Source of the DNA: a virus
IMG/VR virus record: IMGVR_UViG_3300030102_007788
Location: 1-64,000 of that record
Strand: one strand, 5' to 3'
DNA: 64,000 nt
A program made the translations under genes and the position numbers. Positions 13,428 to 24,868 of this stretch are shown here, piece by piece (within the stretch, counting starts at the first letter, position 1; each line of letters starts with the position of its first letter). A model generated the notes under the pieces. It had not been told where the DNA came from. It searched no databases and saw nothing but the letters and a program-made list of their open reading frames with translations.

Positions 13428-14858
13428 ATGGCAAGAACAAGAGTAATTTATCAAGGAGAAGCGCTGTATTGCAGCCAAGATGTAGCGTATAACGTTGCTG
13501 AAACCGGTACCCAAGAAGGGGATGGGGTCACTTCTACTCCTGATAATTTTAACATTAAAGACTTAAACCGCGTTCAAAGCGTTAATTACTCTTTTAATGT
13601 AACTCGTCAAGACGTTAATCAATTTGGAGATTTAGCTGCGATTGATCAATGTATTGTAGAAGCCCCCACTGTTTCCCTTGATGCTTCTTATTATTTGGCT
13701 GACTTTACAAATGAGCATCGCTTGGGTCTTTATGTGACTCAAAGTGGAGAAGGTACAAAATATGGAGGAGCTGCTGATAATCCAGTTGGCGATCAAACGG
13801 TAGAAGCTAGCGGTCTATACAAATCTGCGATTACTAATTTGATAGACAGCACAACAACCGCTTACCAAAAAAATTATTTTATTTTAACTGCTAAAGAAGG
13901 TAAAGATGCTAACCTTAACAGTCCCAGCGGTGTTCCTTTAGCTAATTCTGGTAACTACGAGAGTATTATTGGTATTGGAAATGGATTTTTATCATCTTAT
14001 TCCACAGAAGGTTCTGTTGGTGGAATGCCTACCGTATCAATTGGCGTAGAAGGTCAGAATATGAATTTTGTAAACCTGCCTTACACGCCAGATATAATTA
14101 CAGAAAGTGGTAATATTAAAGCAACTAATCAAGGGTACAGAACTTCAGGCTCCGTTGGGGGCAACGGTATCATAGCTTTAGCAAATTCTTCTTTAATAGG
14201 TCTCTCTGGGGAATCCCCTGCTGTTAATCCTGTAAATGGAACTAAATATGGCCATCCTGTTTGTTTGCCAATTCCTACTGGAAATGCTTCGGGTAAATTC
14301 ATGGGGAGCATATCAACTTTACGCCCCGGAGACATCACCCTTACATTAGCCAAACAAACAGGTGATGCAATAACTTTTGCGGCGACTGGAGAAAATACTT
14401 CTGAACCAACTAATCGTATAACTTCTCCTGATTATGCTGGAGCTAGTATAGCTGACGCTCATATCCAAAGCTATAACATTGGATTTGATTTATCTAGAAC
14501 AGCAATTCAAAAAATGGGTGTTAAATATGCGTTTGCGAGACCGGTAGATTTTCCAATTAACGTAAGTCTTAGCGTAGACGCTATTGTCTCAGATCTTACA
14601 ACTGGTTCTCTAGCTGATATTATTAACTGTGATGATTCTTTTGACGCTAGAGTAACTATGAGAGACCCAAGTTGCGAGACCGATCCCAAGCCAATTGTTT
14701 GTAATTACATTGTTAAGGGATTAAAGTTGGATAGCGAATCCTTTTCGTCAGATATAGGTTCAAATAAAACAGTAACTTTGGACTTCTCAACTCAGATTGG
14801 CGGTCCATCACAGAAAAATAAAGGAATATTTATGAGTGGATCTCATAACATTAATTAA
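13428..14858 (+). CDS. Tail-tube-like major tail protein, copy 1
   Basis: A 476-residue protein, one of two adjacent paralogues. The first 27 bases of both genes are identical, and long stretches match in protein (for example RQDVNQFG, PTVSLDASYYLA or PTVSFDTSYYLA, VEGQNMNFVNLPY, RPGDITL, GSLADIINCDD, SDIGSNK). Position between the neck genes and the chaperone/tape-measure genes, abundant beta structure, and a repeated pattern of the type GxGFLSSYSxxG fit a tail-tube protein. Size is at the large end for tube proteins, which suggests added surface domains; the central stretch of residues 220-300 differs most from the paralogue. Function is inferred from context; no catalytic motif is seen. 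Confidence 0.7.
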   Translation: MARTRVIYQGEALYCSQDVAYNVAETGTQEGDGVTSTPDNFNIKDLNRVQSVNYSFNVTRQDVNQFGDLAAIDQCIVEAPTVSLDASYYLADFTNEHRLGLYVTQSGEGTKYGGAADNPVGDQTVEASGLYKSAITNLIDSTTTAYQKNYFILTAKEGKDANLNSPSGVPLANSGNYESIIGIGNGFLSSYSTEGSVGGMPTVSIGVEGQNMNFVNLPYTPDIITESGNIKATNQGYRTSGSVGGNGIIALANSSLIGLSGESPAVNPVNGTKYGHPVCLPIPTGNASGKFMGSISTLRPGDITLTLAKQTGDAITFAATGENTSEPTNRITSPDYAGASIADAHIQSYNIGFDLSRTAIQKMGVKYAFARPVDFPINVSLSVDAIVSDLTTGSLADIINCDDSFDARVTMRDPSCETDPKPIVCNYIVKGLKLDSESFSSDIGSNKTVTLDFSTQIGGPSQKNKGIFMSGSHNIN

Positions 14859-14879: not shown

Positions 14880-16151
14880 ATGGCAAGAACAAGAGTAATT
14901 TATCAAAGTGAAGCGGTTTACTGCAGTCAAGACGTAGCTTTTGACGCGGAACAAAGAGGAGCCGGAGCTATCAAGCAGTTGAGTAGGGTGCAAAGCGCCA
15001 ACTATTCATTTTCTGTAGCTCGTCAGGACGTTAATCAATTTGGCAATCTTGCTGCAATTGACCAAATCGTTACGGAAAGCCCTACAGTTTCATTCGACAC
15101 TAGCTATTATTTAGCTAATTTTAGCAATGAAGCTCGTTTAGGTTTTAATGTGCTGCAAAGTGGCGTAATAGCTACTGGGTATACTTCATGTATTGGTGAT
15201 ATTATTGATAGTACTAGTAATGCTTATCAAAAAGATTACTACATGCTAACCACTAAGGAAGGTAAGGACGCTAATGAAAATGTAACTACCGGAGACTTTA
15301 GCTACGGCGCAAGCATTATTGGTATTGGCAATGCATTTTTAAGTTCTTACAGTACTGAAGGAGCTGTTGGTGGATTACCTACTGTTTCTGTCAGTGTTGA
15401 AGGGCAAAACATGAATTTTGTAAATTTGCCCTATGCTCCAACTGGAGGTAACTTTGTTGGGGCTGGGCAAGTTGTTGCAGGAGGAAATACGGTTAGAATT
15501 TCCGGAGAAAACCCTGCTGTAAGCGCTACAGATGGTGAAAAAATTGCTTTACCTATCGAGCTGCCAGTGCCAAAAACAAACTCGAATTCAGCCGCGGGGA
15601 ACGAAATTACTACATTGCGTCCCGGCGATATTACCTTAAGCTTAGCGAAGCAAACAGCAACAAGTAACACTGCTGCAACTCTTTTTAAAAGCACAGATGC
15701 TGGAAATAATATGGCTAGCCCGGATTATGCAGGTGCTTCTATTAGCGATGCTCATATTCAAAGCTATACTTTAAGTTTTGATTTGAGTAGATCTCCTATT
15801 CAAAAGTTAGGCAATAGATTTGCTTTTGCTCGGACTGTTGATTTTCCAATCACTGTAAGCTTGAGTGTTGATGCTGTCCTTTCAGACTTAACAAGTGGAT
15901 CTCTTGCTGACATTATTAATTGCGACGATAAGTTTGACGCTAGAATTAGTATTAAAGAGCCAGAGTGTGCCCCCGGCGCTGTTAAGCATGTAGCATTAAA
16001 TTATCTGCTAAAAGGAATGAAGTTGGATAGTCAGTCTTTTTCCTCTGATATTGGTTCTAATAAATCTGTAACATTAGATTTTAGTTCTCAGATTGGCGGT
16101 CCGGATCAGTTTGAACACGGAGTCTTTATGAGCGGTTTTCATAACCCTTAA
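14880..16151 (+). CDS. Tail-tube-like major tail protein, copy 2
   Basis: A 423-residue paralogue of the preceding gene, 21 bp downstream with AAAGGATT before its ATG. It is shorter because two insertions of copy 1 (near residues 20-40 and in the central region) are missing. The conserved core is retained: RQDVNQFGNLAAIDQ, the FLSSYSTEG loop, MNFVNLPY, SDAHIQSY, and the C-terminal SDIGSNKSVTLDFSSQIGGP block. A strong terminator follows, so the pair may be one high-output transcript. One copy could form the tube and the other a decoration or tail-end variant; the sequence alone does not say which. Confidence 0.7.
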   Translation: MARTRVIYQSEAVYCSQDVAFDAEQRGAGAIKQLSRVQSANYSFSVARQDVNQFGNLAAIDQIVTESPTVSFDTSYYLANFSNEARLGFNVLQSGVIATGYTSCIGDIIDSTSNAYQKDYYMLTTKEGKDANENVTTGDFSYGASIIGIGNAFLSSYSTEGAVGGLPTVSVSVEGQNMNFVNLPYAPTGGNFVGAGQVVAGGNTVRISGENPAVSATDGEKIALPIELPVPKTNSNSAAGNEITTLRPGDITLSLAKQTATSNTAATLFKSTDAGNNMASPDYAGASISDAHIQSYTLSFDLSRSPIQKLGNRFAFARTVDFPITVSLSVDAVLSDLTSGSLADIINCDDKFDARISIKEPECAPGAVKHVALNYLLKGMKLDSQSFSSDIGSNKSVTLDFSSQIGGPDQFEHGVFMSGFHNP

Positions 16152-16172
16152 GATAATTAAAAAAATTCACAG

Positions 16173-16199
16173 AGCCCCTCTTATGAGGGGCTTTTTTTT
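16173..16199 (+). terminator. Strong intrinsic terminator
   Basis: AGCCCCTC (16173-16180), TTAT loop, GAGGGGCT (16185-16192), then a run of T to 16199. A perfect 8-bp GC-rich stem followed by eight T residues is a textbook rho-independent terminator. It closes the tail-tube-like transcript. Confidence 0.92.
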
Positions 16200-16217
16200 G
16201 TACTTTTATGTATTTTT

Positions 16218-16241: not shown

Positions 16242-16496
16242 ATGTCTAAGGAAGAAGGACCGGATAGGGATATTATCAATAATTTTTTTGCGTTTCAAAC
16301 AAAGCGGAAAATTACAAACCTGTATAAACAATTCTTTTTTATACTAGAAGACCTCCAAGCTGATGGGATAAAAATCCCTGAAGAAAAACATCAAAGAATC
16401 CGAAAAAAAATACTAGATTTAGGCAACGATACTATTCGTGAGCTGGAGGATTATTTTGATAAATTCATTGAATATAACAATAATAAACAAAAATGA
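16242..16496 (+). CDS. Small putative tail-assembly protein
   Basis: An 84-residue, highly charged, predicted all-helical protein (FAFQTKRKITNLYKQ; later KHQRIRKKILDLGND). It is the first gene after the terminator and overlaps the next gene by 4 bp (ATGA), so it belongs to the chaperone/tape-measure operon. I do not recognise the family. Its place before the tail chaperones suggests a helper in tail assembly. Confidence 0.5.
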   Translation: MSKEEGPDRDIINNFFAFQTKRKITNLYKQFFFILEDLQADGIKIPEEKHQRIRKKILDLGNDTIRELEDYFDKFIEYNNNKQK

Positions 16497-17287
16497 AACG
16501 TATATACGAATTTACTGTCGATAGAGAAGAAATTGTTAAAGAGGAGACCGTTAAAAAAGAAAAAGATGGTACTGAGGTAACAACTTCAAAAGACGTAAAG
16601 AAAAGCGTACCTAAGAAGTATTTTTTACGACGCCCAACTCGCGCTATGACTGACGAAGCGGAGTTATATTATGGCGTTAAATTAGCCGAAGGAATTAAGG
16701 CTGGACTCCTGACCAAGGCGTTGCTTGAAAAACGCTTTGACAACGACGGAGGGACTCGTAATGACCAAGAAAATAAACAATATAAAGAAACTTTAAGTAC
16801 TTTAGAGCAGCTTCATAAAGAGCAAACTAAAATTTTAAATGTAGAAGACAAAAAAAGAACAGCGGCTCAGAAAAAAAGACTAAAAGAGTTGGAAGAGGAA
16901 ATGAAGCCAGCTAGGAGGACTCTTCGCGACCTTCAATTGATGGAGGATGGTCTGTATGAGGAAACCGCAGAAAGCCGCGCTAGAAACAAAGTAATTTTAT
17001 GGTGGATGCTTCACCTAGCTTATGCAGAAAAGGGCGATAAAGAAGCTCCCTTTTTTGGCGAAGGGTCGTTTGACGATAGAATCGAAAGGTACGACGAAAT
17101 TGACGAAGGTGAAGACATTCATGATCTTGTTGTAGCTAGAAAAGTTGCTTATTATGTGAGTTTTTGGTTTGTGGGAAGACCCAACAGTCAAAAAGAGTTT
17201 CAAGAGATGATTGACTTAGCTCTAAAGCTTGACGAAGAAGAAACCAAAGCCGCAGAAGAAGAAGCTAAGAAAGCGGAGAAGTCGTAA
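16493..17287 (+). CDS. Putative tail assembly chaperone, upstream partner
   Basis: A 264-residue, strongly charged, helical protein with a coiled-coil-like central part (residues 95-150, rich in Lys/Glu) and an acidic/Ala C-terminal tail (EEETKAAEEEAKKAEKS). It lies two genes before the tape measure, the usual place of the lambda G / GT type chaperones. The next gene continues in the same frame after one TAA codon and one further codon. In lambda-like phages the two chaperone products are made by a -1 frameshift. Here the arrangement would instead allow reinitiation or stop readthrough. Chaperone function is inferred from order and composition. Confidence 0.5.
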   Translation: MKRIYEFTVDREEIVKEETVKKEKDGTEVTTSKDVKKSVPKKYFLRRPTRAMTDEAELYYGVKLAEGIKAGLLTKALLEKRFDNDGGTRNDQENKQYKETLSTLEQLHKEQTKILNVEDKKRTAAQKKRLKELEEEMKPARRTLRDLQLMEDGLYEETAESRARNKVILWWMLHLAYAEKGDKEAPFFGEGSFDDRIERYDEIDEGEDIHDLVVARKVAYYVSFWFVGRPNSQKEFQEMIDLALKLDEEETKAAEEEAKKAEKS

Positions 17288-17290
17288 AGT

Positions 17291-18286
17291 GTGGAAGATG
17301 CCAGTTTAAAGGTCATTTTTTCTGAAATTCTTAGAGGGTTTACTCTTGTGGATTCTCAATCTCATGGAAAAATAAGAATTAAACACTTCACTAATTTTGA
17401 CTCAGCAGAACTGGATATAAAAAACAAATTATTTCTTGATAAAGCTATAAATCAAGGGCTTCCAACGCGAAAAGATCGAGTTGATTACCTATTAAAAGAA
17501 AATATTTGGACGGAGGATAAGAATAAAGAAATCCTTCAGTCTAAAAGCATGTTAGCGGGGTTAAAAAACTCCAAATCTAAAGTTTTTCTTAAAGTTCATA
17601 TTGATAATATCAATGAACAAATGAAAAAAGAACAGCTTAAGCTAGCAAAACTTGAAACCGAAAAAGAGGAGTTAATAGGTTTCTGTGCTGAGAATTATGC
17701 CTCCCGCCGAATCAATGAGTTTTACATGTTTAACGCTATCTTAGGCCCTGATGGTGACAAACTTTTTAAAACCGATGATTTTGAAGACTTAGAAGAAGAT
17801 GAGTTAGTCGAACTGATAGGAATATACAATAAAAGTACTCACAAGTTTGGTTCAGACAACTTAAAAAAAATATCTCTTTCAGGGTTCTTCACTAATTTAT
17901 TTTATCTTTGTAAGGATAACGCTTTTACTTTTTTTGGCAAACCTCTCGTCCAATTAACCTTTTACCAAATAGAACTTTTTGGATATGGGAGGTATTACAA
18001 AAGTCTAATGGAAAATTCTGAGACTAAAGTCCCAGATGATGTAAAGGAAGATCCCGAAAAGCTTGTAGAATGGTTTGACTCTACTAAAAGCGCGAGAGAA
18101 ACCCTTGAAAAGTCTAAAAACGCGGGTCAGGACGGTAGTGCTACTTCTTTGGTGGGAGCTACAAAAGAGGACCTTCAAAGACTTGGGTTGGATAATCCAG
18201 ATGAGACTATAAACCTCGCCAAAAAAGCCGCAGAAAAGGGAGGCAGGCTTAATATGGAAGATATGATGAAACTTCACGGAATGTAA
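17291..18286 (+). CDS. Putative tail assembly chaperone, downstream partner
   Basis: A 331-residue protein that begins with GTG; the frame is the same as that of the preceding gene, from which it is separated only by TAA AGT. There is no early in-frame ATG, and GGAG lies 12 bp before the GTG. The protein is helical, with a Lys/Glu-rich coiled coil near residues 110-130 and a conserved-looking acidic segment (DDFEDLEEDELVELIG). It directly precedes the tape measure, as the T half of the lambda GT pair does. The true initiation site is uncertain: it may also be expressed as a C-terminal extension of the upstream protein by readthrough. Confidence 0.5.
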   Translation: MEDASLKVIFSEILRGFTLVDSQSHGKIRIKHFTNFDSAELDIKNKLFLDKAINQGLPTRKDRVDYLLKENIWTEDKNKEILQSKSMLAGLKNSKSKVFLKVHIDNINEQMKKEQLKLAKLETEKEELIGFCAENYASRRINEFYMFNAILGPDGDKLFKTDDFEDLEEDELVELIGIYNKSTHKFGSDNLKKISLSGFFTNLFYLCKDNAFTFFGKPLVQLTFYQIELFGYGRYYKSLMENSETKVPDDVKEDPEKLVEWFDSTKSARETLEKSKNAGQDGSATSLVGATKEDLQRLGLDNPDETINLAKKAAEKGGRLNMEDMMKLHGM

Positions 18287-18316: not shown

Positions 18317-21300
18317 ATGGCTAGGGATAAAATAGAAGTCGATTTATTATTAAACGCCAAGAGAGCGGAAGCCACGATTAAGAAAATGAATCGTGAGCTC
18401 GATAAAATGGGTAAAACCATGAGTCGGGCTTTTAGTGGAGGTCCCGGTGCTGGCGGTGATAAAGTTAGAGCCCTTGGCACTGGCTTGTCAAAAGCTACTG
18501 TTCGTGCCGACGAGTTCACTAAATCCCTAGAAGCTTCTAATGCTCGTGTTATAGCTTTTGGCGCGTCAGCGGGTCTTATAATGAACGTTGAGAAGGCTAT
18601 GAGGGCTATGGTAGTGTCCGCTATCAAAGTCGAAAAAGCAATGGCCGATGTAAATGTGGTCATGAACGTATCCACCAAAAGGTTGGAGCAGTTCGGAAAG
18701 GGCATGTTTAAGGTTGCTAAAGACACTGCACAAAATTTCGATACAGTAGCAGAAGCAGCGACAGAGCTTGCTCGTCAAGGTTTAGGAATGGAAAAGACTT
18801 TGATGAGAACAAAAGATGCTCTCATCCTTACCCGACTGACAGGTATGAACGCAGCGGATTCTGTTAAGTCTTTGACTGCTGCTGTAAACTCTTTCAATAA
18901 AGCCGGAGTCACCTCTACCCAAGTTATCAATAAAATGGCAAAAGTTGACGCTGCCTTTGCTGTTAGTTCAGAAGATTTAGCAAAATCCATTTCCCGAGTT
19001 GGTTCTTCTGCTGTTGACGCGGGAGTAAGCTTAGATCAGTTACTAGCAATTACTACGGCAGTGCAGCAAAAAACTGCACGAGGTGGTGCTGTAATTGGTA
19101 ACGCATTTAAAACTATCTTTACGCGCATTCAGCGTACTGACGTTCAGCAAAAATTAGCTAATATAGGTGTTGCTACTCAAGACATGCAAGGAAACATGTT
19201 GGACGCAGTTACCGTGTTAAGAAATCTAGCCGGAGAATTTCAGAATTTAAGTAAGCAACAACAAGCTAACATAGCAGAAAACGTAGCTGGAGTTTTCCAA
19301 GTTAACGTTTTAAGAGCTGCTTTGTCAGATTTAAGTTCAGAATATTCTAACTACGGAAGAGCTTTAAACACCGCTAGTACCGCTACTACAGAAGCCTATC
19401 AAAGAAACGAGCAGTTAAATAAAAGTTTAGACGCGTTAGTAAACAGAACGCTGGCTAATTTAACACAAGCTGGAGCAGCTTTAGGTGGAGATTTATTTGG
19501 GCCAACAATTGAAAAGATTTTAGGTTTAGTAAATACAACTATTGACTCCTTTGGCAAAGGGGGTGCCATGGAAGGGTTTGGTCAGACTATAGGTAAAGGT
19601 TTGATCAAGGGGATTGGAAGTTTTATATCAGGCCCCGGCTTGGTTTTAGCAACTGCAGTGTTTGGTAAGCTAGCTTTGAGTTTGGGTAAATTTGCCTCAC
19701 AGGCTTTAAAAGATATTGTAGGGCTCAATACTGCAACTAAACAAAGAGCGGCGTTAGAGGAGGTTGTAGTCGCTACCATAGCTAAAGAGCCAGCTCTTTT
19801 ACAAAGAGTAAAAGCGGGAACGTTGGATGTCCTAACTGTCGAAAAACAAATTTTAAATACGATAAGACAACAGCAGGCAGAGAGAAAAGCTTTATCAGGT
19901 TACGGAGGAGCTTTAGCTACATCTATGTATGGGAGAGGGGCTCGAGTTGGATCAAGTGGTAGAGCTTTTATGAGAGGTGGCCCCGGGGCCGCTGGTGGAT
20001 TTGTCCCTAACTTTGCTAACCCAAATACTGAGAGAGCCGCGGCAGCTGCCGGAGGATATACTGCGGGAGCCATTAAGACGATGAGACAGCCCGGGGCTGG
20101 CACTATGATGTATAATTCTGCCGAGACCGTTAGGCAGTTTCCGGGGATGGCTCAGAAAGCTATCATGCCACCAAAGGGAAGCCCTGCTGGAGCTGCTTAC
20201 AAATCAGCTTTCGGCGCAGCACACGGTTTTAACCCTTACGCTGCTGGTGGATTTGTACCTAATTTCGCTCCAAAATCTAGCCCTTGGGCTACCGTTAGTA
20301 GAAAAAGAGGCATCGGAAACAAAGAAGCCACTTATACGATTCCGGCGAATGATATAGGAGTATTGTTAGGTTATGACGAAAAAAGAACGACTACCTTTGA
20401 TGCTCCAGCAAATGTTGCGAGTTTAGCTGGCTTAAGGAATACCCCTATAGGTAAAAAGCTTGCTAAAGACAAAGCGCGTGTCGTCCTAAGAGGCATAAGA
20501 GCAAAAAGTTTTCAATCTCCTAGTGCAGATGCGACTGCGGAACAGTTGTTTGCAAATGATTTAGACTTGAATTTGAAAAAGGGTATGTCCGGTCTCTCTA
20601 AAACCATGATGAGAAAAATGGGGATAGAGGGCATGCCCGGAAGAATGGGTCGTTTAGACCCCGGAACTGAGGGGGGCATTTTTGAAGAGGCTATGCGTAT
20701 GTCGATGAAAGCAGCGCAAGCCACTCCCGGGGCTGCTTTTGATTTCGAAGCAGGCGGAAAACCAACTGACGCGATGTCTAGAATTTTTGGTGTTCCTATC
20801 ACTCGTATAGATGCTAAAAGAAGACTTGAGGCAGCTAAGGGTGGGGAAATGCCTAAGAAATACTTTAATGATCCTGTGACTAAGAAAACTGGAATAAAAT
20901 TACTAACAGATCTTGCGGCAGGTAAATATGGACAATTTACAAAAAGCGCTGCAGCTGGCTTTGTTCCTAACTTTAGCCCTCTTTCTAATTCCATAGGAAG
21001 AGAAATGGCGGCAGGAGTTCCTGCTTCTGCAATTAGAGTGGGTTCTAGCTCATCTCTTCGTGGGCCGGGAAATCCTCGTGGCCTTGGAGTTTACAATACT
21101 ATAGATGAGCCAATGGGTTTGAATCAGGGTATTCGTCGATCAAGGAATATGGGTATTAATCCTCGCGGGCATGGTGCTGCTGAGGGTTTTGTGCCTAACT
21201 TTATGGTGCCTACGCGTATCCTTAATCAACCAAGACCTTTGGGACCTTACCGTCCTGCACAAAAGAAAGTTGATAAAGCAACTACCGAAACTGCAGAAAA

Positions 21301-24300
21301 TACTGGCCGTATGGCTAAGATAATGCAAGGAATACGAGATAGGCCAGAGATGGCTTCAATGGGTGGATTTGCAGCTTATACAGCTTTAACTGGTAGTACC
21401 TCTATGATGGGCGATCAAGTAGCCGCGGGAGGCAGAATCGCAGCAAATATGGGAATGATGACAATGACTGGAGCGGCTCTTGCAGGGCCTGCGGCGCCAT
21501 TAGGGGCAGCCGTAGGGGCGGCTGTAGGCGCTCTTTCTTCTATTGGTGACATAATGATCCTTTTTAAAGATAATACTGAACAGGTTGCAGAAGCGCTAGC
21601 TAAATCTACAGGTATTATAAACGAAAGCTTAGGTAAAATTCTAGGAGCTGTAGACGCTCTTGGTAATTATGATTCTATGACTGTTGAAGAAAGAATGAAC
21701 AAGCTCATGGAAATTGAAACAGAGCGGGTAGAAGCTTTGAACTTTCTTGAAAAAGAGGCGAAAAAAGAGGGGGCAAATCCTATTTTTGCGTCGTTAGCGG
21801 CAGATTTGAAAAAGACTTTACCTACTGCTGGCGCTGCTATTGCCAAAGGAAACGTTAGCGCTGAATTCTTAAGGGGTTCGCGTCAGCAATTATCCCAAAT
21901 ACAGGGTCAAACTCAAGCTGCGTTAGGGTTACAAGGGTTTGTAAATGAAGAAGGAGGGTTCGCGGGATTAACAAAGGAAGAAGATACAGGTCGTTATAGG
22001 CATCTCGACTTCGCAACCGAAAGGATAATGAAGACCGTAGGCGACCCTAATAAAAAAGGTCAGGCTCAATTTTTGCTTAATACTTTAATAGGAGCTAAGG
22101 GTGGCGCGGAAATAGCAACGGCACCACTTACAGGCGCTGGCCCAGTAACGAAAATGAGAGGAACAACTGGGCTAACTGAATTAGAAGCTATAAGTAAGCT
22201 CGTAAAGGATGGTAAGGTTCAGGAGGGGATAGGGGCTTTTCTTGCTTTATTGGAAAATCCAGCAATAGGTAAAGGGGGGCTCGCTAAAGGTTTTGAAAAA
22301 GCTTTTGCTTTTGATAGGAGCTTTAACGTAAAAGAATATAAATCTGGAATAACCGATAAAACCCCACTGGGCAGGTTCAGCCGGAAGCATGGCGATCTAG
22401 CTACAACAGTAGGGGCACGTTTTGCATTTCAATCCATGTTTGAACAAGGGGGCATGTATGGTCCTGAGATGTTAGAGGCCGCAAGGGCAGCTACTATAAG
22501 AAAAGATTCTGGACCCGGTCCCGATTTAGGCGCCGCTATAAGAGGATCCTCAAGAAGAGGTTTCAGCGCTCAGCGTATGGCCAGAGGACAAGCTCGCTCT
22601 AGTATTGATTTAAAAAGAGAGGCTCAAGCAGCAAATAAGTTGGCGGCGCAACAAATGCAATACGCAACGGCTATAGCTCGGGCTACCAAAGACACTATAG
22701 GGCTTTCTGATGAAACTAAAAAGTTAGCAGACGCGGAAGCAGAGAGAAGATTTGAGCAAGATATGAATATCGCCAAAGCTTCAAAAAGAGAAGCTGAAAG
22801 CAAAGCTTTCGTTAGCGCTAATGCTCTACGCACATCTTATCTTATGGATAATAATTTGGGCGTGTCTCAGCAAAAATCTGTAAGTAGAGCGTTTGATAGA
22901 GTATTAACGATGTCCCCAAAAGAGATGGAGGACGAAGTGACTCGAATACGTGGTATAATGGGTCCTAAACTTCCCCAAGATGATTTTACTTTAAAGCTTT
23001 TAGAGGCTGTTCTTCCTAATTTCCAAAAAATTGGAGAAGATTTTAAAACCGCGGGAGACAACGCAACAAACGCTCTTACAGATTCAAAAAATATTAATAA
23101 GGAGAAAAACGAAGCTGATAAAGAAGCGTTAAGGTTATCTCGCATACTGAATACTGAAAAACAAAGGGAAATAAGAATAACTCAAGCTATACTATCTAAG
23201 CAAAGTGTTGATGACGCGAAGAGAAGAGCGAAGCGTGGTCAAATGTCGGCAAAAGATGTAGCTAGAACTTATCAAGGGTCAATAGATGATCAAATTGCCG
23301 CTTACGGTATAGGTAGCGTTGATGTCGGCGGGGTTATGGGCCAAACATTTAGAAATGAAATGGCTTACAATCAGGTTGACGCGTTTAGGGATTTTAGAAG
23401 CGGGGTCCAAGACGTAGCTGGGACTATGAAGTCCTCTTTCGCTCAAGCGTTTCAATCTATATCTACCGGAGCAACAACTGTGCAAGGTGCTTTGGCTAAT
23501 ATGGCCCAAAGCATTCTTAATTCAATTAACCAAATGTCTAGTCAGATATTTGCCAACATGATGTTCTCCAAAATGTTTGCAGGTAATTCTCCCGGAGCTT
23601 TTGCTCAAGGAGGTTATGTAAGAGGATACGCTGGTGGTGGTTTAGTTACAGGGGGTTCTGGTTACAAAGATGACGTGTTGACAAAAATGTCTGGCGGGGA
23701 ATTTGTGATTAAAAAATCTGCTGTTAATAAAATAGGAGTAGGAACTTTAAACGCTATTAATGGATATGCTAACGGCGGCCAAGCGGGACCCGGTATGGGC
23801 GCTATGGGTATGTTGGCTTTAGGGTCAGGAGCTGCTTCAGGTATAATTGGGGCAGCAATGGCCGACGGTCCAGATAAACCTATTCGTATGCAAAACTATG
23901 GTAAGGGCAGAAATGAGTTGGGTTATTTAGGTGGTGCGGATATAGACGCTGGCCAAGTCGATTCCATTGGAGGAGGACCAAGGTCTGCGAGTACTTCACT
24001 GGCTAAAGGTTTTGTATATTATACAAGAGATCCAAAAACAGGTAGGCTTATTAGTGAAAGAGCTAGACCTACTGAAGGAAGATTTGAAGTGAGTGACAGT
24101 TTATCTTTAATGGGCAGGCTATCAGAAGGAGACCCGCAAACAGCAAGAATGTTTGAGAAGGAACAAAGATTGGGTTCGTATCTTAATTATGTAGCTGGGG
24201 AAAAAGCTAGCAGAAAGGCTCAAATACAAGCGGTCAAAGATCAAAAAAGAGCAAGAACTATGGGTGCATTTGTGAACGCAGCTATGTTAATAGGTGGAGC

Positions 24301-24868
24301 GAAGCTAATGTCAATGGGTAAGCCTGATTCTCCAGCAGCAATAGACGTGGATTTTGATCCATCAACAGGAGCAAGTAGCAGTTACCCTCTGGGTTATGGT
24401 GGTACAACTGGCTCCTTTAGCGCTACCACGGGAGCATCACGCAGTTATCCGTCAAATTACCCCGGGATAGGAGGAGATAACGCTAATGGGGGGCTGGCTA
24501 AAGTAATGGGTGGAGAGTATATAATGAGCCCTCAAGCAGTCCGTACTCACGGCGTAGGCTTCATGACAGAGCTTAATCGCGGAAATGTCCCCGGTTACGC
24601 TTCTGGCGGTTTAGTTGGCGGCGGAGGAGGCGGTTCTACGGTCAATAACGGCGGTAATACCACTAATAACGTTAAGATAAATATCAGTATTGATAAGAAG
24701 GGTAAAGCTGAAGTAGAATCTGGAGTCACAACTGCTCAAGCCAGCGGAAGCGACAGAGACGATCAGGGAGAAGCTCAGAGTAACGCCAAGTTCGGTGAGA
24801 TCATTCAGGGAATGGTTTTGGAAGAAATTGTCAAGCAGCAAAGACCCGGTGGGCTTTTAACAAATTAA
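18317..24868 (+). CDS. Tape measure protein
   Basis: A 2183-residue protein, the longest gene here. The N-terminal third matches the TP901-type phage tail tape-measure family: an N-terminal helix with repeated Lys/Ala (KRAEATIKKMNRELDKMG) and the block TARGGAVIGNAFKTIFTRI near residues 255-275. By the known rule of about 0.15 nm per residue the tail would be roughly 330 nm. The middle carries four copies of an AAxGFVPNF motif (near residues 558, 642, 878 and 955). The C-terminus has two GGEFVI/GGEYIM modules (near residues 1795 and 2065) with Gly-rich spacers, typical of tape-measure ends. A hydrophobic Ala/Gly stretch (residues 1035-1080) may insert into the host membrane. It converges with the tail-tip operon, stop codons overlapping. 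Confidence 0.92.
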   Translation: MARDKIEVDLLLNAKRAEATIKKMNRELDKMGKTMSRAFSGGPGAGGDKVRALGTGLSKATVRADEFTKSLEASNARVIAFGASAGLIMNVEKAMRAMVVSAIKVEKAMADVNVVMNVSTKRLEQFGKGMFKVAKDTAQNFDTVAEAATELARQGLGMEKTLMRTKDALILTRLTGMNAADSVKSLTAAVNSFNKAGVTSTQVINKMAKVDAAFAVSSEDLAKSISRVGSSAVDAGVSLDQLLAITTAVQQKTARGGAVIGNAFKTIFTRIQRTDVQQKLANIGVATQDMQGNMLDAVTVLRNLAGEFQNLSKQQQANIAENVAGVFQVNVLRAALSDLSSEYSNYGRALNTASTATTEAYQRNEQLNKSLDALVNRTLANLTQAGAALGGDLFGPTIEKILGLVNTTIDSFGKGGAMEGFGQTIGKGLIKGIGSFISGPGLVLATAVFGKLALSLGKFASQALKDIVGLNTATKQRAALEEVVVATIAKEPALLQRVKAGTLDVLTVEKQILNTIRQQQAERKALSGYGGALATSMYGRGARVGSSGRAFMRGGPGAAGGFVPNFANPNTERAAAAAGGYTAGAIKTMRQPGAGTMMYNSAETVRQFPGMAQKAIMPPKGSPAGAAYKSAFGAAHGFNPYAAGGFVPNFAPKSSPWATVSRKRGIGNKEATYTIPANDIGVLLGYDEKRTTTFDAPANVASLAGLRNTPIGKKLAKDKARVVLRGIRAKSFQSPSADATAEQLFANDLDLNLKKGMSGLSKTMMRKMGIEGMPGRMGRLDPGTEGGIFEEAMRMSMKAAQATPGAAFDFEAGGKPTDAMSRIFGVPITRIDAKRRLEAAKGGEMPKKYFNDPVTKKTGIKLLTDLAAGKYGQFTKSAAAGFVPNFSPLSNSIGREMAAGVPASAIRVGSSSSLRGPGNPRGLGVYNTIDEPMGLNQGIRRSRNMGINPRGHGAAEGFVPNFMVPTRILNQPRPLGPYRPAQKKVDKATTETAENTGRMAKIMQGIRDRPEMASMGGFAAYTALTGSTSMMGDQVAAGGRIAANMGMMTMTGAALAGPAAPLGAAVGAAVGALSSIGDIMILFKDNTEQVAEALAKSTGIINESLGKILGAVDALGNYDSMTVEERMNKLMEIETERVEALNFLEKEAKKEGANPIFASLAADLKKTLPTAGAAIAKGNVSAEFLRGSRQQLSQIQGQTQAALGLQGFVNEEGGFAGLTKEEDTGRYRHLDFATERIMKTVGDPNKKGQAQFLLNTLIGAKGGAEIATAPLTGAGPVTKMRGTTGLTELEAISKLVKDGKVQEGIGAFLALLENPAIGKGGLAKGFEKAFAFDRSFNVKEYKSGITDKTPLGRFSRKHGDLATTVGARFAFQSMFEQGGMYGPEMLEAARAATIRKDSGPGPDLGAAIRGSSRRGFSAQRMARGQARSSIDLKREAQAANKLAAQQMQYATAIARATKDTIGLSDETKKLADAEAERRFEQDMNIAKASKREAESKAFVSANALRTSYLMDNNLGVSQQKSVSRAFDRVLTMSPKEMEDEVTRIRGIMGPKLPQDDFTLKLLEAVLPNFQKIGEDFKTAGDNATNALTDSKNINKEKNEADKEALRLSRILNTEKQREIRITQAILSKQSVDDAKRRAKRGQMSAKDVARTYQGSIDDQIAAYGIGSVDVGGVMGQTFRNEMAYNQVDAFRDFRSGVQDVAGTMKSSFAQAFQSISTGATTVQGALANMAQSILNSINQMSSQIFANMMFSKMFAGNSPGAFAQGGYVRGYAGGGLVTGGSGYKDDVLTKMSGGEFVIKKSAVNKIGVGTLNAINGYANGGQAGPGMGAMGMLALGSGAASGIIGAAMADGPDKPIRMQNYGKGRNELGYLGGADIDAGQVDSIGGGPRSASTSLAKGFVYYTRDPKTGRLISERARPTEGRFEVSDSLSLMGRLSEGDPQTARMFEKEQRLGSYLNYVAGEKASRKAQIQAVKDQKRARTMGAFVNAAMLIGGAKLMSMGKPDSPAAIDVDFDPSTGASSSYPLGYGGTTGSFSATTGASRSYPSNYPGIGGDNANGGLAKVMGGEYIMSPQAVRTHGVGFMTELNRGNVPGYASGGLVGGGGGGSTVNNGGNTTNNVKINISIDKKGKAEVESGVTTAQASGSDRDDQGEAQSNAKFGEIIQGMVLEEIVKQQRPGGLLTN

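Follow-up and report, generated by a model that had tools for sequence, protein, structure and literature searches.

How two neighbouring phage genes that share one reading frame and stand on either side of a single stop codon are turned into protein, separately or also as one longer chain, is the question raised by a locus in the window, the 64,000-nucleotide stretch analysed here, taken from a virus record of 170,406 bases (IMGVR_UViG_3300030102_007788). Gene B (16493-17287, plus strand; 264 aa, ATG start) ends in TCG TAA, with the TAA at 17285-17287, and gene C (17291-18286, plus strand; 331 aa) opens with GTG after one intervening codon, AGT (17288-17290). The junction reads TAA AGT GTG (17285-17293), and translation of 16493-18286 meets one internal stop. 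All of this agrees with the preliminary description of the locus, in which both genes were called chaperone-like and either a longer form made by stop readthrough (TCG TAA AGT) or a second protein made by reinitiation was suggested. The comparison of related loci leads to the view that B and C are probably two separately translated tail-assembly genes, placed like G and GT of lambda and derived from one ancestral protein, with no designed fusion between them.

Among viral contigs, 14 relatives of B and, by profile search, 121 relatives of C were found; the best 80 of the 121 were kept, and 83 loci were examined (the window, L022-L101, L115 and L116). B and C are adjacent in 80 of these 83 loci, which include the best 80 of the 121 C relatives, and none of them contains a fused B-C open reading frame (ORF); the three loci without B (L083, L100 and L101) are cut by a contig end. 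Removal of 16 of the 80 as duplicates of junction and lengths leaves 64 loci, and three with a truncated B (L031, L081 and L099) are left out of counts on B, for which n is hence 61. Across the 64 non-duplicate loci, which share kinship and whose counts are not independent, C lies in the frame of B in 22, at +1 in 26 and at -1 in 16, and the tree of C requires no fewer than 15 changes of frame. Since the same-frame share is close to the one in three expected if all frames are free, the common frame of B and C in the window is not remarkable in itself. Spacing also varies among close relatives, some of which have TAGTG overlaps (L025, L030, L032 and L033) and others B-C gaps of 40-49 nt followed by an ATG start (L026, L027, L029 and L035). 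Because frame and spacing change freely in relatives, B and C are best taken as two separate tail-assembly genes and not as one protein obtained via stop readthrough.

A B-C fusion made by readthrough of the TAA, which would play the role of lambda GT, is extremely improbable in the light of these junctions. A lone stop between the frames is shared by the window and 12 of the 63 other loci, and the clade of the window (five loci: the window, L022-L024 and L028) retains this form, the other eight of the 13 such loci being scattered; moreover, a lambda-type system requires the long form, as stated in excerpts of the lambda study (PMC5009743). Within this clade, however, the pattern TAA-NNN-GTG is kept with the middle codons AGT, GAT, GAT, CGT and AGT (window, L022, L023, L024 and L028, respectively), and neither the intervening codon nor the end of B is conserved. 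Two or more in-frame stops occur in 9 of the 22 same-frame junctions (for example, TAA TGA ATG in L041, L045 and L052), and in 29 of the 64 junctions no single readthrough or one-base slip could join B and C. The combination expected of a readthrough gene, a conserved in-frame stop with an open frame beyond it, was not found across the 64 loci. The preliminary description had also called for a comparison with related phages and had taken a lack of conservation of the in-frame stop to speak against readthrough; on the sequence side that lack is what is observed, with the same frame in 22 and a single stop in 13 of the 64. The TAA by itself is ordinary: it is the commonest stop of B (TAA 41, TAG 12 and TGA 11 among the 64 non-duplicates) and ends 26 of the 32 ORFs of the window, as an ordinary stop for this phage. 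The only tRNAs found in the 170-kb record are Arg(tct) and Cys(gca), neither of them a suppressor. The drifting frame, the multiple stops, the unjoinable junctions, the common TAA and the absence of a suppressor tRNA in the record together make readthrough unlikely.

A programmed frameshift elsewhere, from A to B or from B to C, could yield the long form instead, and the overlaps at both junctions give this idea some footing. Gene A, a highly conserved small protein of 84 aa (16242-16496, plus strand; 86-99% identity among close relatives), is present as a separate gene in 53 of the 61 loci having a complete B. It shares ATGA with B, in the -1 frame, in the window and 17 further loci, and B and C overlap by at least 9 nt in 22 of the 64 loci (6 at -1 and 16 at +1); C start codons were chosen for their closeness to the profile, with uncertainty in the long-overlap clade (L079-L082, L084 and L086) and in L051. 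Against this, the A-B spacing and frame are variable. The overlap of 15/16 -1 junctions tested contains no X_XXY_YYZ heptamer, and heptamer positions within B are common to at most 6 of 61 members. The same 29 junctions that a single readthrough could not join are equally out of reach of one slip. Production of a long form from the short gene by programmed frameshifting, which marks the G/GT arrangement, thus finds no sign in the -1 heptamer scan of 15 -1 junctions or in the free frame, and is very improbable here.

The ordinary way to read the junction, and the favoured one, is that C has an initiation of its own, coupled or independent. Stop-start overlaps (ATGA, TAGTG) and near-adjacent restarts are typical of translationally coupled gene pairs in phage and bacterial operons, and, as judged from the junction sequences, those found between B and C suggest that C is started either by coupled re-initiation or independently. 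Of the two routes first suggested for the second product, readthrough falls away and reinitiation, or coupled initiation, fits the stop-start overlaps. B would terminate at the TAA, and C would be made by ribosomes that re-initiate on, or independently initiate at, the GTG lying 3 nt further on. Starts other than ATG are found in 27 of 64 C genes (GTG or TTG), 4 of 61 B genes and 11 of 63 tape-measure genes. Shine-Dalgarno matches of at least 4 bases precede C in 21 of 64 loci and B in 13 of 61, as compared with 6 of 64 random places, a weak signal. Between B and C, a terminator-like hairpin followed by T's was detected by script in 13 of the 64 loci, or in 15 when L056 and L064, judged by eye, are added, and the script found no such hairpin after C in the 64 loci. 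All 15 loci were used on the tree and in the Fisher test: the trait needs 5 changes on the tree, and its link with an ATG start in C (13 of 15 vs 24 of 49, p 0.015) is unsupported once phylogeny is included (2 independent pairs). Within the window, a strong intrinsic-terminator-like hairpin of 10 pairs with a T run lies at 16171-16200 (plus strand), separating the second large tail protein from gene A, and such a hairpin is also present upstream of B in many relatives.

Besides being neighbours, B and C are related in sequence. Profile-profile comparison of the two gives a probability of 94% (E 1.5e-7) over 143 columns, and a repeat on trimmed alignments gives 94.9% (E 4e-8) with a score of 62, whereas 100 column shuffles reach at most 28 and reversed profiles 18 and 17. 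Coiled coils can inflate the scores of such comparisons; with the coil removed, the relation is retained at E 5e-5 and a probability of 68%. In pieces it is weak (3.5% for the N part alone, 29% for the coil alone and 45% for the post-coil part). The AlphaFold2 models of B and C (pLDDT 84.1 and 83.5) have a common order of elements: first a beta hairpin, then helices of 20 and 10 residues, a long coiled-coil hairpin and finally a helix of 17 residues. In the model of B, two strands are followed by helices at residues 50-69, 75-84, 91-115, 124-155 and 159-175 and by two further strands; in that of C, a first helix precedes two strands and helices at 35-54, 60-69, 75-97, 101-129 and 133-149, after which about 160 further residues follow. 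On these profiles and models, B and C look paralogous, with an extra C-terminal part in C: C would consist of an N-terminal part resembling B (about residues 27-166), a C-terminal part of its own and a C-tail. B ends in a variable charged C-terminal tail. The C-tail of C is very conserved (18236-18283 in the window, consensus KKGGSLSMEDLMKLHG). Both genes would stem from one ancestral protein, to which C has added a further part.

The function of the pair is approached through its neighbours. Downstream of C lies the gene of the tail tape-measure protein (18317-24868, plus strand; 2183 aa; phrog_4211, E 8.8e-53; PF10145, E 1.5e-27), which follows C in 63 of the 64 non-duplicate loci, and lambda-like tail-tip genes are found further downstream on the opposite strand. 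From this gene set, including the tape measure and the lambda-like tail-tip genes, the phage is probably long-tailed and non-contractile. Upstream of gene A are two large tail proteins of 476 aa (13428-14858, plus strand) and 423 aa (14880-16151, plus strand) that are 57% identical to each other and that, from their position 5' of the tape measure, are probable tail-tube paralogues; PHROGs and Pfam scans gave no family match for them. More than one copy of such a large tail protein is present in the relatives L001, L002, L005, L006, L007 and L010, and one copy in others, within the sequence examined. The slot between a tail tube gene and the tape measure usually holds tail chaperones, and B and C occupy it, the tube identity of the upstream genes being presumed. 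On gene position, a chaperone role for B and C is plausible, B as a proposed G-like protein and C as its proposed GT-like partner.

The earlier label of chaperone-like is plausible from gene order, with the tape measure downstream and tube-like genes upstream, but is not backed by family membership. PHROGs and Pfam scans of the window and of all 61 B and 64 C members matched no tail-chaperone family; they gave scattered weak matches, and the most widespread of these, to PF18165 (10 of 64 C members, best E 8e-4), was given no weight. In 50,697 phage records, tblastn found no match for B and C of the window, for B of L090 and L116 or for C of L096. Among solved structures, sequence search gave nothing for B and one weak match for C (6un9, E 0.04); the rows of the fold search against the PDB mainly cover the coiled coil, and known chaperone folds are not among them. 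The fold search against BFVD returned no match at E <= 0.001, and two of its rows labelled tail assembly chaperone (E 0.3 to 1.8, with low TM-scores) are not evidence. Family, fold and literature searches gave no hit that names either B or C a chaperone. With the N-terminal 500 residues of the tape measure, 141 phage records were matched, each at less than 60% identity; one of these, Bacillus phage vB_BcoS-136, is uninformative, hypothetical proteins and a recombinase preceding its tape measure. The one distant relative in the genome collection (L118) lies on a 34-kb contig, perhaps of a phage, binned as a Halobacteriovorax MAG. The lack of a family match, together with the length of B and C (long for chaperones) and the conserved C-tail of C, would also suit tail genes of another function, such as hub, completion or scaffold proteins. 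This alternative is at odds with the site of the pair between tube-like genes and the tape measure and with the constancy of the tape measure behind C, and we regard it as unlikely.

Under the preferred reading of two separately translated tail-assembly genes, B may be the more abundant form and coat the tape measure, while C may be scarcer and, through its own B-like part and its extension, couple the tape measure to the tube protein. What fixes the ratio of B to C might be a weak coupled start or, in certain relatives, the terminator between the genes. A broader proposal, which we offer tentatively and hold to be possible and on balance doubtful, is that a large uncultured family of long-tailed phages has replaced the frameshift of the lambda type by duplication, a G-like B and a GT-like C being paralogues whose ratio is tuned per lineage by a terminator or by a weak coupled start, with lambda-like stoichiometry reached at the level of transcription or initiation, without recoding. 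If so, selection would keep the ratio and not the frameshift, and the phage group would provide a natural test series. The wider B/C family is of mild interest in that it may offer, by duplication, an alternative to frameshifting.

Control of the G:GT ratio by frameshifting is a textbook case of recoding. In lambda, as described in excerpts of the same study, frameshifting sets a gpG:gpGT ratio of 30:1, which is of importance in assembling the tail; the tape measure is the binding partner of gpG and of the G part, and the tube protein is that of T (PMC5009743). B and C are like gpG and gpGT in lying after the major tail protein and before the tape measure, and in the expectation of two related products of which the longer carries an additional C-terminal domain. 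They differ in that each is a gene complete in itself with a B-like part of its own, and in that the searches above gave neither a frameshift signal nor a match in sequence or fold to a known chaperone. In being two separate genes they resemble those of Microbacterium phages of subcluster EA1 (e.g., Figueroism), whose chaperones are said, in the part of the publication available, to come from two separate genes with no frameshifted pair (PMC11659878); for other phages of the EA cluster the annotation gives a frameshift, according to an excerpt (PMC7975873). Two chaperone genes are annotated without being joined in 342 of 3679 SEA-PHAGES genomes, where the authors, in the accessible portion of their text, suspect largely incomplete annotation (PMC10885494). 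From the EA1 phages and these genomes, as far as the excerpts go, separate chaperone genes as such are already known. Separate chaperone genes that are paralogous, or that have a hairpin between them, were not found in the open-access literature searched, part of it in excerpt, which does not prove their absence. With translationally coupled gene pairs, finally, the B/C loci have in common ATGA, TAGTG and near-adjacent restarts, and in this respect they are nothing unusual.
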